DNA of 64,000 nucleotides, taken from Solibacteraceae bacterium. Its GTDB lineage: Bacteria; Acidobacteriota; Terriglobia; Bryobacterales; Bryobacteraceae. The position numbers and the translations under genes are program-made. This document shows positions 41,134-54,591 of this stretch, one piece after another (position 1 is the first letter of the stretch; each line of letters opens with the position of its first letter). The stretch is taken from the NCBI GenBank assembly GCA_021324015.1, contig JAJPJX010000121.1, positions 1-64,000 on the forward strand, in the 5' to 3' direction. The notes below the pieces were generated by a model, which ran no database searches, was not told the origin of the DNA, and worked only from the letters and a program-made list of their open reading frames with translations.

Positions 41134-42147
41134 ATGGCCGCGAGAATTCAGCAACTCATCCTGGGCCTCGGCAAGAACAAGCAGACCAACATCTCGACTG
41201 CCGGGTCCACGTTCCTGCGCCTGAAGAAGATCGACACCACGGTCACGACGCCGAAGCCGGTGTTCGAGAACGACGCTGCCGAAATCGGCAAGCAGAACGA
41301 GTTCATCTTCCAGACGTTCCCGTCGCACTACGACGTCGCGAACCGCATCGAGAAGTACGCCAGCGCGGAATTCGTGACCTGGGCAACCGCTTATGCTCTT
41401 GGCAACGTGACGATGACCGGCTCGTCCGCGCCCTACACCTATACCATCGTGCCGATCGATCCCGGCACCACCATCGAGCTGCCGTACTTCTCGGTGGTCG
41501 AGCAGGTTGCCGAGGGCGGTGGCAGCGCGGTCGATAATCTTTATGTCGGCTGCGCCATCGAAGACTTCACGTATCAGTTCAACTACGGGCCTGGCCGCGC
41601 CTCCTCGAAGATGACGGTCAACTGGGTCGGCTCTGGCCTGCTGACCACGCCTTCGGGCATCACGGTGCCGGCGCTCACGACCGAGAACAACATGCTTGCG
41701 GCTTCGATGTCGCTGTCGGTCAACGGCGTCGATTACGTGGCGACGAAGCGCATTCTGTCGGGCAGCATCGGCTGGAAGAACAACCTCCTCCTGAACGCGG
41801 GATTCTTCCCCGGCTCCGGCTTGCAGAATGGCCTCCAGGTCCGCGGCCGCCTGGAAATCGGCGCCCGCGTGCCGTCGTTCCAGTTCACCGCGCGGTTGCT
41901 TTCGGGATCGACCGAGTACAACACGCTCGTCAACCAGACCACCGGCACGGCGACGCTCAGCGTCCAGCACGACGCGGGCAATTCGGTGTCTTTCAGCTTC
42001 CCGCAGATGGCGTTCCAGATCGTCGAGAACGCCGAAGCCGATGGCATCGTGGCGGTGACCGTGACCGGCGCGCCCCAGTACAACACCACCCAGAACACGG
42101 TGCTGTCGGTCACGACGAAGTGCGGCATTTCCGGTATCGCGCAGTAA
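41134..42147 (+). CDS. Major tail tube protein (gpV-like)
   Basis: 337 aa. Beta-rich with segments such as AEFVTWATAYALGNVTMTGS and SMSLSVNGVDYVATKRILSG, and an Ig-like end. It precedes the G/GT chaperone pair and the tape measure gene, the place of the tail tube in siphoviruses. A role as tube monomer is well supported by synteny. Confidence 0.8.
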   Translation: MAARIQQLILGLGKNKQTNISTAGSTFLRLKKIDTTVTTPKPVFENDAAEIGKQNEFIFQTFPSHYDVANRIEKYASAEFVTWATAYALGNVTMTGSSAPYTYTIVPIDPGTTIELPYFSVVEQVAEGGGSAVDNLYVGCAIEDFTYQFNYGPGRASSKMTVNWVGSGLLTTPSGITVPALTTENNMLAASMSLSVNGVDYVATKRILSGSIGWKNNLLLNAGFFPGSGLQNGLQVRGRLEIGARVPSFQFTARLLSGSTEYNTLVNQTTGTATLSVQHDAGNSVSFSFPQMAFQIVENAEADGIVAVTVTGAPQYNTTQNTVLSVTTKCGISGIAQ

Positions 42148-42167
42148 ATCCACTCCCAGGAGTATCT

Positions 42168-42782
42168 ATGTACGGCAGCATTCCCAACGAGGGCATCGCC
42201 ATTCGCGTGCCCAACCCGCCCAAGACGGCCCGCGTTCGCCTCCCGACCACCGAGGAGATGCTGGGCCGTCTGGCGCAGCAGAAGTCGATCCGGCGCACCA
42301 TCGGCCGGCGCAAGTCGCAGACGGAGTACGTCTCGAATCCCAAGGCCGATCTCGCCTTGTTCAACCAGATCCGGTTGGACAAGGACGGCCCGGAGTTCGA
42401 CGAGTTCGAGGCCGGCAATGCGATCTCGAAGCTCACGTTCTGCGACGTGACCGGCTGCGAGCGCGTGGGCGACGAGTACCAGATCACGCTCAAGACGCCG
42501 TTCGGCGACACCGTTCACACGATGAAAATCCCGACGCAGCGGGATATCACCGTGTACCGCCGCACGGTCGTCTCCTCTACCGATCTGCCTCATGGCCAGG
42601 AGGAGTTGCGTTACCGCATCGAGCCTGCCATGGATCTGTACGATTCGACGGTGAGCAAGATCGAGGGTTATGCCGATGGCTACAAGGCCGCCGACGTGCC
42701 GCCGCACCACAAATCGGCGGTCGTGGTCGAACTGGTCCAGGCCATCGAGGACATGGACCCCTCGCTCGACCCAAACTCCTAG
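42168..42782 (+). CDS. Tail assembly chaperone G
   Basis: 204 aa from ATG 42168 (AGGAG ribosome site; an in-frame upstream ATG would lie inside the tube gene). Binds and folds the tape measure protein during tail assembly. Recognised mainly by place and by the -1 slippery site in its last codons. Ends 4 nt after C CCA AAC. Confidence 0.75.
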   Translation: MYGSIPNEGIAIRVPNPPKTARVRLPTTEEMLGRLAQQKSIRRTIGRRKSQTEYVSNPKADLALFNQIRLDKDGPEFDEFEAGNAISKLTFCDVTGCERVGDEYQITLKTPFGDTVHTMKIPTQRDITVYRRTVVSSTDLPHGQEELRYRIEPAMDLYDSTVSKIEGYADGYKAADVPPHHKSAVVVELVQAIEDMDPSLDPNS

Positions 42783-43234
42783 GGCCGGACGAGTGGCCGC
42801 ATCCGGTCCCTCTCCGGCTCCTCGTCCATCGCTCGATCCGCCAGGAGGACCTTTGCGATGGAGGCGCGCACGGCCCGCGCGGGTGCCCGGATGCCAACGA
42901 TGTGACCTGCGATAAGTGCGGGCACCAGCGCACCGTTGGCGATACCAACGCGCCTGGCGCCTGCCCGCACTGCGGCTCCGTGCAGTACACAATCAATCGC
43001 TGCTCGCATTGCCGGCTGGACGACCTGGATTACGTGCGCTCGCACTCGGCGTCCGGCCGCCTCTTTGAGCGGGTCCTCGAGCTGGAGTTCGACGCAGCCC
43101 ACTTCTCGATCCCGTGGAGCGACGTGACCGCAGAAGAGGTCCGCGGCCTCCAGATCCTCAAGGAAGAACGCGACCGCTACCAGCGGGAGCAGGCTCACAA
43201 CAACCAAATCCAACTACCGAGGCCAACTGAATGA
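42168..43234 (+). CDS. Tail assembly chaperone GT, made by -1 frameshift
   Basis: If ribosomes slip at 42770-42776, the 203 residues to Asn continue with 152 more in the -1 frame, giving a 355-aa GT protein. The extension begins LLGPDEWPHPVPL and contains a zinc-ribbon-like set CDKCGH...CPHCG...CSHC. The -1 frame is open without a stop from before the slip site to 43234, and lacks its own ATG; a GTG at 42902 has no ribosome site, which supports fusion. Confidence 0.75.
42770..42776 (+). other. -1 slippery heptamer C CCA AAC
   Basis: The heptamer is in the reading frame of G as X XXY YYZ. The zero-frame TAG follows at 42780-42782. A possible stimulatory stem, GGACGAG (42787-42793) with CTCGTCC (42821-42827), starts 10 nt downstream. 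The design matches the conserved G/GT frameshift of long-tailed phages. Confidence 0.8.
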
Positions 43235-43485
43235 ACCCCACCCCGCCTTGCGCCATGTGCGGCACGCCCGTCGAGATGGAAATCGACCCCCAGATCCGCT
43301 TCTCGTCCGGCGTCGGCAGCACCGCCATCGTCATCGAGCACCCGAAGCAGGTCGCCTGCCCCGCCTGCGGCAGCCTCCTGCATCTGGCCATCGTCGGCAT
43401 CCAGAACATCCAGATGAAGACTGCCGTGGTGCCCCCGCAGAAGCGCCAGTTGGTGGTGCCGATCAGCCGCGTCCGCGTCGGTTGA
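43231..43485 (+). CDS. Small zinc-ribbon phage protein
   Basis: 84 aa with CAMCG near residue 7 and CPACG near 43, a four-cysteine ribbon. ATGA overlap with the GT end. Similar ribbon to that of GT, so both may bind the same target. Function unknown. Confidence 0.6.
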   Translation: MNPTPPCAMCGTPVEMEIDPQIRFSSGVGSTAIVIEHPKQVACPACGSLLHLAIVGIQNIQMKTAVVPPQKRQLVVPISRVRVG

Positions 43486-50295: not shown

Positions 50296-53200
50296 ATGTC
50301 CGACACCATTGGCAGAATTACAGTGCCGAGCCTTGCCCTATCCACGGGCGGTATCGGCCTGCAAAACACGCTCGTATTCCCGCTCGCCAGCGACTTCGGC
50401 TACGGCTTCACCCAGGACCGCCCAGTCGTCGTGCATCGCTTCGGCGAGCTGGATGCCAAGGCCGAGCAGCGTTTCGCCGTGGGCCTGGGCCCGCGGAAGT
50501 TCGCTTTCCGGCGCCAGCACCTCTCGAAGCGCGACCGGAACTCGCTGGTGTCCTTCTGGGAAGGCCTGCAAGGCGCGTGGCAGGCGTTCACGTACAACGT
50601 GCCGAGTCCCGTGCAGGTCAGCAGCCCGCGTGCCTCGGCCGAGACGACCACACCGACGCTCGTGACGTGGGAGTACGCACCGCTCTCGATCCAGTACCTC
50701 GCCAACGCCTGCCAGACCGGCTTCAACTTCATCGAAGTGCCCACCAGCGGGCCGACCTATCAGGTCAACAGCACGTGCCTGCGTTTCCCGTCCTCAACGC
50801 TCCAGACCGCGCTGCTATCGCAGGTCCAGCAGATCATCCCGTTGATCCACATCCGCGTCCGCGAGGCGGCGGTGCCGGATATCTGGCTCTCGGACCGGCG
50901 TTGCACGCTGTCCGACCAGGCGAGCGGAGCGGTCAAGTCGGCGATGGGCTGGCCGGCCATGAGCCAAACGTACCTGCCGCGCGTGCTGGGCCTTGGCGAG
51001 CCTGGTTCCGACACGATCATTTCGCAAGACATCAAGGGCACCGCCGACAATGTGCAGTTCACGTTCGGCAATGCCGACCGCGTGATGACTGCGCTGGCCA
51101 ACGACACGGATTTGAAGTTCGCGTCTATCGACCTGTGCCTCCTGCACGTGAACTCCAACACCGTGATCCAGCTCTGGAAGGGGTTCATCGTGAGCTACAC
51201 GTCGGACGGCAGCCCGCAGTTCACCGTCCGGTGCTCCGATGGCCTCTACCAGATCACGCAAATGTACCCGGTGCGCGCGATCTCGCGCCAGTGCTGGAAG
51301 ATGTTCAGGGACGGCGTGAATTGTCCCTATGCCACGCAGGGTAGCGGCGGCGATCCGAATTCCTGCGACTATTATTTCGATTCCGTCTTCGATCCGTCGC
51401 AGGGCACGAACCCGGACGGCACGTATAAGTGTCCGGGCGGCTGCCAAGCGCACGGCATGACCAAGTACTTCGGCGGCCATCCCGCGGAACCGCAGGGCGT
51501 CGTCATCAAGGACAACTCGACCGGGCTGTGGGGAATCGGGCGCAGCACGGTGACCGCCACGTCGATCATCTCCGACACCATCTGGGGCAATGCGCTCCAG
51601 GAAATCTGGTGCAACGACGACGGCGATCCGGGCAAGGCCTTCTGGGTCAACTGCATGATCGCCGCGGGCCGGGATGAGTCTGATTACTATGACGCCCTCG
51701 GTATCGTGGGCGCCGGACCCATCGGATCGTACACGGGGATGCTCGTGTACACGAACGCGGACGGCTACCGCTATATCATCGCGCCGATGCTGGACGGCCA
51801 GACGCCGCAGGGATTCCAGGTTGACGGCAGCCTCAACGTCGTGAAGGACCAGCCGACGATGGGATTGCGCGAGGTCACCGGCAACGACCCCTGCGACCTG
51901 ACACACGATTCGTTCTCGCTCGGCGACGGCACGCCGCAGAAGTGGGGGCCGGAGATGGCGGCCGGCACCGCGTTCGTAGAGGTCCGGCGCACCAAGGCGT
52001 CCGGCGTCCAGCCGACGACCACGGACCAGCACGAGATGAAGGTGCCGATCTCGCAGGGCCTCGCGGGGTGGACCTGGGACCAGAACGGCAACCGCACGCT
52101 CGCGAATGGCCTGACGAACCCGTTCTGGATCGCGGTGAATTGCTTCCTCCGCACGCTTGGCCTGTTTGGCGCGGGGTCGGCGAGCCAACTGGCAAACATT
52201 GTCCTTCCCTCCCTCTACGCGGGGGACGGGAGCGGCACCGCCGAGATCGCGGACAATTACGTGACGCCCATTGTTGGGACGGGGCTGGAGAAGCAATTCC
52301 GGTTTCAGGGCGTCCTGGCCTCGCAGAAGCCGTTCCGCGACTGGCTCGTCGAAGTCCTCGCTTGCGGCCTCGGTTACTTCACGTTTGAATTCGGCAAACT
52401 GAAGCTCGGCTGCCGGATCAACGCTTCGGCTGTCGAGGCGTTTACGCTTGGGAATATCCTGTTCCAGTCCCTCCGGTTGGAGCCGATCGAGGCGGGCTTC
52501 GAGAAGCTGGTGGTCTCGTTCGCCGACCAGGCGTATCAGTATCAGGCCAACACCGCCGAATACTGCGATAAGACCCATGCAGCCTACTACGGCCGCGCCG
52601 GCGCACCCTTGAGCGCGCCCCAGCACCTCGTGGGCTGCGGCACGCTCTCGCAGGCCTTGCGCCTGGCCGCCGTCCGGACGCGCGAGGAGATCGGCGGCAT
52701 CAACGCGACTGAGTGGCGCAACGCGCGGAACGCCTATTGGCAGACGACAATCCTGGCCCTCAACACGGAGGTGGGCCAGGTCGTCTCGATGACGCATCCG
52801 GACGTGCCTGGCGGCGCCGGCGATTTCCGCATCCTCTCCTGGCGACTGAAGAAGGACTGGTCCATCGACATTACCGCCAAGACGGTCACGCCCTCGATGT
52901 ACGACCTCACGACCGGGCCGAAGCCCCAGGACGTGACGCCCGATCCTCTGCCGGGCATGGTCTATGCCATTCCCCTCGGGCCGATGTGGGCGCCGTACCA
53001 GATCCAAGCGCCAGCCAACGATGCGCTATTCCCTGGCGAATGGACGTTCGACTGCGACCAGACGTACACGACCCTCGCGGATGGCAGCGCGCTCGCGTCG
53101 CTGGCGATCACTGGCAATCTCCCGGTGAACGAGTTCAGCCCGACCGGTGCCGGTGGGCCTGTGATCGGCACCATCTCGCAGAGCACCACGGGCGGGTCCC

Positions 53201-54591
53201 TCCCTGGTGGCGCGACGTTCCGGATTGCCCTGTGCGCCATCGACTCGAACGGCCTTCCGTCCACGCCCTCGCGGATTGCCATTGTCCAGACGCCGGCCGG
53301 CGCCAATACGAACCAGATCACGCTCTCGAACATCACGTGGCCTTCCGTGGCTGGCCTGGCGCGGTACGCCGTCTTTATCGCGACACAGGACGACCTGATC
53401 TGCTGGCAGCAGGGTGATGTGCTCACTGCCGGCACGGGCAACACCTATACGCCCACCTCGATCACGATCAACGGGCCTCTGGCGCGATCCACATGGGCGT
53501 TGCCCTCGCCTTATGTCTCGAAGATCCGGATCAAGGCGAAGCACCTCATCCATGGTGGGATCGTCGGCGTGAACGTGGACAACGTGACCGCCAGCACCAT
53601 CGTTTGCAACGAGCTGATCAACCCGAACACGACCTTCAGCCCGGTGGGACGGATCGTATCGGTCATCGGACGGCCCGAGAGCAGCACGCCATTTGTGAGC
53701 TTTACGATTACCGGGTACGACAAGACGACCGGGACGCTTACGGTGACACCCTCGCCGACGACCACGGGCCATCCCGAATTGTCGGTCCAGAAGAACGACA
53801 CCATCGTCATCCGTTTCAAGGCCGATGCCGCTAATACCAGCAACCCGACGCAGATCACCGACTCCGGCTGCCAGAACATGGTCTATGCGGACGGCATGAC
53901 GCCGGGCGCCGAGGTCGGCAACATCCTGCGCGTGATCGCCGGGACCGGGCGCGGCCAGCTCCGCAAGATCACGGGCAACACCCAGACGCAGTTGTCCTGG
54001 GATCTGCCGTTGACGCTCGATACCACGTCGGTTTGGATCGTAGAGGCTCCGGCGTGGGATTACGTGGCCGACTCCACGGCCATCAGCAATGCCGATCCGT
54101 CGCACGCGGTTACGCTGAACGTGCCGACCGACAACTTCGTCGATCAGCCTCTTGTGATCGCGGGCTTCACCGTGGATTCCAACGGCAATGAGTCTCCGGA
54201 CGGCGACAACCCGATCCGCGAGGACTGGATTTATGGTGCCGAGGGAGAGGCCCAAGCAGGCTTCATTCTGCCGGTCGCCGGGGTTCTGGGCATCCAGTCC
54301 GATGCCGCGCCCGCATTCTATCTCAACAACGACTTCACGCCTGGCGCGATCAAGGCTTACGTGAAGTCCGCGCCGGTGGGCGCGGATCTGACGTTCTCGC
54401 TTTACGTTGGCACCGCGAGCGACCCGTGGATCACTTTGACGATCCCGGCAGGCCAGAAGTCGGTCGTGGCCACGTCCGACGTGATTGACGCGCTCGCGCC
54501 GATCCCGGCCAGCACGAACGTGCGCCTCGCGATCACCTCGGTTGGGACCACGTATCCCGGCACCGACCTCACGGTCTTTGTTTACGCCTGA
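50296..54591 (+). CDS. Tail tip protein, gpL-like plus gpJ-like fusion
   Basis: 1431 aa. Residues 1-140 resemble the preceding gene. Residues 200-390 resemble BR0599/gpL tip proteins, including cysteines in GVNCPYA, NSCDYYFD and CPGGCQAHG near 340-390 that could bind an Fe-S cluster. Residues 620-890 look like the gpJ hub. The end has Ig/FN3-like strands. Separate genes in lambda, here one chain. It ends one base into the fibre gene. Confidence 0.8.
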   Translation: MSDTIGRITVPSLALSTGGIGLQNTLVFPLASDFGYGFTQDRPVVVHRFGELDAKAEQRFAVGLGPRKFAFRRQHLSKRDRNSLVSFWEGLQGAWQAFTYNVPSPVQVSSPRASAETTTPTLVTWEYAPLSIQYLANACQTGFNFIEVPTSGPTYQVNSTCLRFPSSTLQTALLSQVQQIIPLIHIRVREAAVPDIWLSDRRCTLSDQASGAVKSAMGWPAMSQTYLPRVLGLGEPGSDTIISQDIKGTADNVQFTFGNADRVMTALANDTDLKFASIDLCLLHVNSNTVIQLWKGFIVSYTSDGSPQFTVRCSDGLYQITQMYPVRAISRQCWKMFRDGVNCPYATQGSGGDPNSCDYYFDSVFDPSQGTNPDGTYKCPGGCQAHGMTKYFGGHPAEPQGVVIKDNSTGLWGIGRSTVTATSIISDTIWGNALQEIWCNDDGDPGKAFWVNCMIAAGRDESDYYDALGIVGAGPIGSYTGMLVYTNADGYRYIIAPMLDGQTPQGFQVDGSLNVVKDQPTMGLREVTGNDPCDLTHDSFSLGDGTPQKWGPEMAAGTAFVEVRRTKASGVQPTTTDQHEMKVPISQGLAGWTWDQNGNRTLANGLTNPFWIAVNCFLRTLGLFGAGSASQLANIVLPSLYAGDGSGTAEIADNYVTPIVGTGLEKQFRFQGVLASQKPFRDWLVEVLACGLGYFTFEFGKLKLGCRINASAVEAFTLGNILFQSLRLEPIEAGFEKLVVSFADQAYQYQANTAEYCDKTHAAYYGRAGAPLSAPQHLVGCGTLSQALRLAAVRTREEIGGINATEWRNARNAYWQTTILALNTEVGQVVSMTHPDVPGGAGDFRILSWRLKKDWSIDITAKTVTPSMYDLTTGPKPQDVTPDPLPGMVYAIPLGPMWAPYQIQAPANDALFPGEWTFDCDQTYTTLADGSALASLAITGNLPVNEFSPTGAGGPVIGTISQSTTGGSLPGGATFRIALCAIDSNGLPSTPSRIAIVQTPAGANTNQITLSNITWPSVAGLARYAVFIATQDDLICWQQGDVLTAGTGNTYTPTSITINGPLARSTWALPSPYVSKIRIKAKHLIHGGIVGVNVDNVTASTIVCNELINPNTTFSPVGRIVSVIGRPESSTPFVSFTITGYDKTTGTLTVTPSPTTTGHPELSVQKNDTIVIRFKADAANTSNPTQITDSGCQNMVYADGMTPGAEVGNILRVIAGTGRGQLRKITGNTQTQLSWDLPLTLDTTSVWIVEAPAWDYVADSTAISNADPSHAVTLNVPTDNFVDQPLVIAGFTVDSNGNESPDGDNPIREDWIYGAEGEAQAGFILPVAGVLGIQSDAAPAFYLNNDFTPGAIKAYVKSAPVGADLTFSLYVGTASDPWITLTIPAGQKSVVATSDVIDALAPIPASTNVRLAITSVGTTYPGTDLTVFVYA

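Follow-up and report, generated by a model that had tools for sequence, protein, structure and literature searches.

A predicted G/GT frameshift cassette with a putative zinc-binding T domain and varied slip sites in prophages of Acidobacteria

The tail assembly chaperones of bacteriophage lambda, gpG and gpGT, arise through ribosomal slippage at the heptamer G_GGA_AAG, and the corresponding genes follow the order tail protein, G, T, and tape measure (PMC5009743). The locus described here resembles that of lambda in its predicted two products from one start, in a predicted -1 slip close to where G ends, and, with a tail protein gene assigned by position, in its gene order. It differs in the slip heptamer and in the T part, the lambda T being devoid of cysteine. 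A second parallel is offered by gp13/gp14 of HK97, annotated as a -1 frameshift tail chaperone preceding the tape measure gene. Its T part likewise starts with a stretch resembling PGVKFL...ALR, but it too contains no cysteine. In the cdd gene of Bacillus subtilis, a -1 slip occurs beside the stop codon, and the stimulator is a Shine-Dalgarno-like site lying upstream. That shift, at CGA AAG, is cited in PMC5009743. An upstream stimulator is likewise suggested for two branches of the family considered below, referred to as branches 2 and B, although cdd is not a tail gene and the clade to which our sequence belongs, the window clade, is without an upstream stimulator.

The stretch of DNA that was analyzed, hereafter the window, is 64,000 nucleotides long and forms part of an 8.2 Mb genome (G000). 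Listed in Table 1 are the features of interest. Located 5' of G are genes for the terminase, portal, head protease, scaffold, major head, and head-closure proteins. The candidate major tail protein is encoded directly 5' of G, between the head-completion genes and G itself, and gave no notable match in Pfam or PHROG. Two small genes separate T from the tape measure gene, the product of which also matches PhageMin_Tail (1.7e-4, below the curated cut-off). With the upstream tail protein assigned by position, the place occupied by G and T would be that of the G/GT chaperones in lambda and HK97. Within the tail region there is also an open reading frame of 1431 residues (50296-54591) for which no PHROG match was obtained at 0.01.

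Table 1. Positions of the features discussed, in window coordinates
Feature	Position	Strand	Basis or remark
Candidate major tail protein, 337-aa ORF	41134..42147	+	Assigned by position alone
Ribosome-binding site of G, AGGAG	42158..42162	+	Read from sequence, 5 nt 5' of ATG
G, zero-frame tail assembly chaperone (inferred role), 204 aa	42168..42782	+	ATG 42168-42170
Slippery heptamer C_CCA_AAC	42770..42776	+	In G frame
Zero-frame stop TAG	42780..42782	+	
T, -1-frame extension, 152 aa	42776..43234	+	T homology in -1 frame of relatives
Predicted stimulatory stem-loop	42781..42822	+	RNAalifold
Zinc-binding region of T (predicted)	42854..43021, limits approximate	+	Cys pattern, alignment, weak Pfam/Foldseek matches
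Gene following T, 84 aa, with two CxxC pairs	43231..43485	+	ATGA overlap with T stop
ORF, 149 aa	43490..43939	+	Resembles (by eye) small proteins 3' of T in other branches
Tape measure protein, 1732 aa	44345..49543	+	PHROG tail length tape measure, 3.9e-11

The first of the two small genes had been described, from the sequence alone, as another zinc ribbon. Its two CxxC pairs are indeed present, but a homologue adjoins T in just 4 of the 26 window-clade loci with enough flanking sequence, and hence the gene is accessory and was ruled out as a fixed part of the cassette. Beside T, the small protein is shared by a few near relatives only. The second gene gave no PHROG match; proteins resembling it by eye come after T in four other loci (L140, L141, L142, and L147). 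Many branch-2 relatives show an overlap of a few bases between the end of T and the gene that follows, which in the four loci inspected encodes a long tape-measure-like protein.

The zero frame at the end of G reads ...GAC CCA AAC TCC TAG, so that, as the sequence-only reading had it, the heptamer is in the correct frame shortly before the TAG, from which it is separated by three bases. Also as had been reported, the -1 frame is open through position 43234, its stop being the TGA at 43232-43234. A slip after AAC would yield a GT fusion of 203 + 152 = 355 residues. The fusion junction is predicted to read ...SLDPN-LLGPDEWP..., and the predicted GT junction peptide is ...SLDPNLLGPDEWPHPVPLR. The heptamer alone carries no meaning, given that CCCAAAC is found 3 times in the whole window against 6.7 expected, and comparison with relatives is therefore needed. 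As judged from the sequences, its significance comes from frame, place, and conservation.

The cassette is, with high probability, that of a G/GT tail assembly chaperone of a long-tailed prophage employing -1 frameshifting. This was also the proposal of the sequence-only reading, and it is supported in outline by the conserved -1 relation, the slip sites, and the startless T discussed below. From these features we infer the slip itself, its rate, and the chaperone role. Most ribosomes would stop at the TAG at 42780 to produce G, and a minority would slip back by one base on C_CCA_AAC to produce GT. In Escherichia coli, AAC in the A site is a weak slip codon, and thus the slip rate may be low. 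By analogy with lambda, G would coat the tape measure protein, and recruitment of the major tail protein would fall to the T part, here by means of a zinc-stabilized fold.

Neither G nor T displays convincing sequence or profile similarity to its lambda or HK97 counterpart; in hhalign comparisons with HK97, no more than 15-16 columns were aligned, with a probability of 1-2.5%. The structure model of G has a pLDDT of 82, and among its named viral fold neighbors are Mu FS-gp41, a tail chaperone of HHTV-2, and T5-like tape measure chaperones, all of them weak (E > 0.001). Searches of the PDB by sequence or fold revealed no relative of G, an absence that says little, and querying the genomes of cultured phages with G or T returned nothing useful.

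For the comparative analysis, G and T served as queries for gathering loci from viral contigs and from genomes, including those of Acidobacteria, and T was located independently by tblastn. The survey comprised 348 loci with 208 distinct junctions. In 205 of the 206 loci in which T was found, it lies in the -1 frame relative to G. The lone exception is a contig that is seemingly frame-broken inside T (L174/L056), and one additional locus, L107, is a partial match with T absent. Relatives of G are present in G000 and in seven further genomes of its family, and the named hosts are Acidobacteriia and Bryobacterales metagenome-assembled genomes. Note that the junction of one Bryobacterales locus (L106) is identical to that of L008, which belongs to another member of the G000 family (genome G020). 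The host of the prophage is accordingly taken to be an acidobacterium.

The heptamer suggested for comparison in related prophages, CCCAAAC, is retained in 29 of 29 window-clade loci and is also the slip site in two loci resembling L033. In branch 2 the sites are CCCAAAC (77), AAATTTT (19), AAATTTC (4), GGGAAAC (2), and A_AGT_TTT-like sequences (7). In branch B they are C_CCG_GAA (62), CTCGGAA (3), and ATCGGAA (1), with GGGTTTT in the divergent L141. Loci without CCCAAAC mostly have another slip-prone sequence at or near the same place. An in-frame X_XXY_YYZ motif at -10 or -7 occurs in 131 of 208 G genes as compared to 3 of 617 other long open reading frames on the same contigs. The near-canonical A_AGT_TTT or A_AGT_TTC is found in branch-2 loci L236, L258, L261, L297, L332, and L220, and G_AGT_TTT in L245; in sites of the A_AGT_TTT type the P-site codon is unable to re-pair fully. 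Six homologous G genes occur in the single assembly G000, on contigs C19, C94, C97, C2, C137, and C144, and their slip sites are CCCAAAC (three), AAATTTT (one), and CCCGGAA (two). This suggests several related prophages in one host.

In branch B (L036-L106 and L145-L186), C_CCG_GAA replaces the canonical heptamer directly before the G stop in ~62 distinct loci. Within the sequence GAC CCG GAA TAG, the C at -7, the G at -4, and the A at -1 are 98-100% fixed among 61 distinct junctions, whereas third codon positions 5' of the junction vary, with identity down to 39%. In many of these loci the -1 frame has a stop 10-22 nt 5' of the zero-frame one, and the frame change is therefore confined to that stretch. 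CCCGGAA corresponds to the "threetwotwo" motif, which the authors of PRFect proposed on the basis of frameshift joins annotated in genomes of SEA-PHAGES. They called it hypothetical and noted that it could mimic the classic motif by means of a G-U pair (PMC10885494). The same sequence is fixed in branch B where the window has the canonical CCCAAAC. Unlike the PRFect case, it is conserved here across a family, and canonical heptamers are found in the sister branches. Slippage at C_CCG_GAA would have the A-site tRNA-Glu re-pair on GGA, the central pair being G-U. At the glutamine codon nine codons before the branch-B slip site, CAA is used in 52 junctions and CAG in 6, although CAG accounts for 85% of the glutamine codons elsewhere in these G genes. 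The preference for CAA is possibly another mRNA signal.

The T part of the window contains eight cysteines, including the three CxxC pairs to which attention had been drawn. An alignment demonstrates that the beginning of T, WP..P..RFL, is common to all branches. There are 4-5 cysteines in 106 of 109 branch-2 proteins and 8-9 in most proteins of the window clade and branch B; the conserved cysteines come in sets of four. This pattern suggests that T is built on an outer tetrad, formed by the first two cysteines and the last CxxC pair, with an optional CxxC...CxxC ribbon as an insert. The window T would accordingly carry two cysteine tetrads, the zinc ribbon being the inserted one, and the branch-2 proteins, which have no ribbon, a single tetrad. 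No Pfam family scored above its curated cut-off with T; the best match, HypA, reached 18.7 bits as compared to the 28.9 needed, and weak zinc-ribbon matches also fell below cut-off. The structure model of T has a mean pLDDT of 82. Its ribbon part resembles Rpb12-type zinc ribbons in Foldseek, with no match reaching an E value of 0.001. From these considerations we infer that T binds zinc. Among the titles and abstract openings returned by a literature search, there was no relevant report of zinc-type T domains.

The resemblance of the inserted ribbon, in sequence and fold, to ribbons related to nucleic acids (Rpb12, reverse gyrase, and PolD) raises the question of whether frameshifting takes place as described while the zinc module of T binds nucleic acid or has some other role, rather than recruiting the tail protein. 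We consider this unlikely, for the G/GT arrangement and the position before the tape measure gene match those of known tail chaperones, and the ribbon is optional, being absent from branch 2.

A rival reading is that T is made separately by reinitiation or from an internal start, with no fusion. Against it, most loci of every branch offer no suitable start codon: the T frame contains no ATG, GTG, or TTG 5' of the conserved beginning in 22 of 28 window-clade, 98 of 108 branch-2, and 45 of 64 branch-B loci. In the window the earliest start codon of this frame is the GTG at 42902, which lies inside the domain and past the conserved beginning. Stop-start coupling is conceivable in branch B, where the zero-frame stop overlaps an ATA (AATAG) or, in two loci, an ATG (AATGA). 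The ATG, however, replaces the ATA in just 2 of 61 distinct junctions, and L142, in which a codon is interposed between CCCGGAA and the stop, is without the ATA(G) overlap. Relatives combining the lack of a slip site with a T gene having its own start were not seen. Separate synthesis of T is consequently judged to be very improbable.

The dN/dS ratio is ~0.14 for G in the window clade and ~0.20 for T, which indicates from the sequences that T is under purifying selection. Although seven-base motifs are common, as the number of CCCAAAC copies in the window attests, it is scarcely credible that the heptamer matches by chance and that G/T is one gene split by decay or mis-assembly, inasmuch as the same frame relation and site recur in ~200 distinct junctions, dN/dS is far below 1 for both parts, and in-frame motifs greatly exceed the background given above.

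A 7-bp stem downstream of the heptamer had also been put forward, and it exists as sequence (GGACGAG at 42787-42793 with CTCGTCC at 42821-42827). It is not conserved, however, and was ruled out as a conserved element in that it does not exceed its shuffles. Conserved instead is an overlapping 9-bp stem that starts 4 nt after the heptamer, in which 42781-42789 pairs with 42813-42822 (one bulge). An inner hairpin is formed by about 42791-42796 with 42803-42808. In 29 sequences of the window clade and the L033-like loci, 92% of the cells in this stem are paired, and seven pairs have two-sided changes. None of 500 shuffles reached any of five measures, and slid versions pair far less; the shuffles keep relatedness, and the sequences tested are the very ones that yielded the structure. 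The covariation support for the stem is thus good but not final. The folding z of the window stem-loop is -2.3. In the window clade, this stem would help the slip.

No comparable conserved stem was found in branches 2 and B. At the branch-2 AAATTTT/AGTTTT sites, the codon at -5 is GAG in 30 of 30 cases against a background of 61%, which gives GGAGG-like (Shine-Dalgarno-like) sites 9 nt 5' of the slip sequence. In branch B a weaker motif, GAGG, lies about as far 5' of the slip site. An internal Shine-Dalgarno site was not found in the window clade, the median being -1.7 kcal/mol versus -2.9 kcal/mol in a control stretch. Taking slip sites, stimulators, and the T domain together, we somewhat favor a history in which, within one family, canonical heptamers and the non-canonical C_CCG_GAA have repeatedly replaced one another as slip site, the stimulator has changed between a stem lying downstream and a Shine-Dalgarno-like site lying upstream, and T represents a new zinc-binding kind.

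The mechanism of the cassette is that of an ordinary textbook G/GT system. What is new, as far as the sequences indicate, is a family with a predicted zinc-type T and turnover of its slip site. The family provides a natural comparative series, in which one G/T junction is seen with at least five slip sequences and with two candidates for the stimulator. Included in the series is CCCGGAA, the motif considered hypothetical in PRFect, and matched junctions could show whether it is a real slip site. A zinc-type T, in turn, would solve in a different manner the assembly task carried out by the cysteine-free T domains of lambda and HK97.
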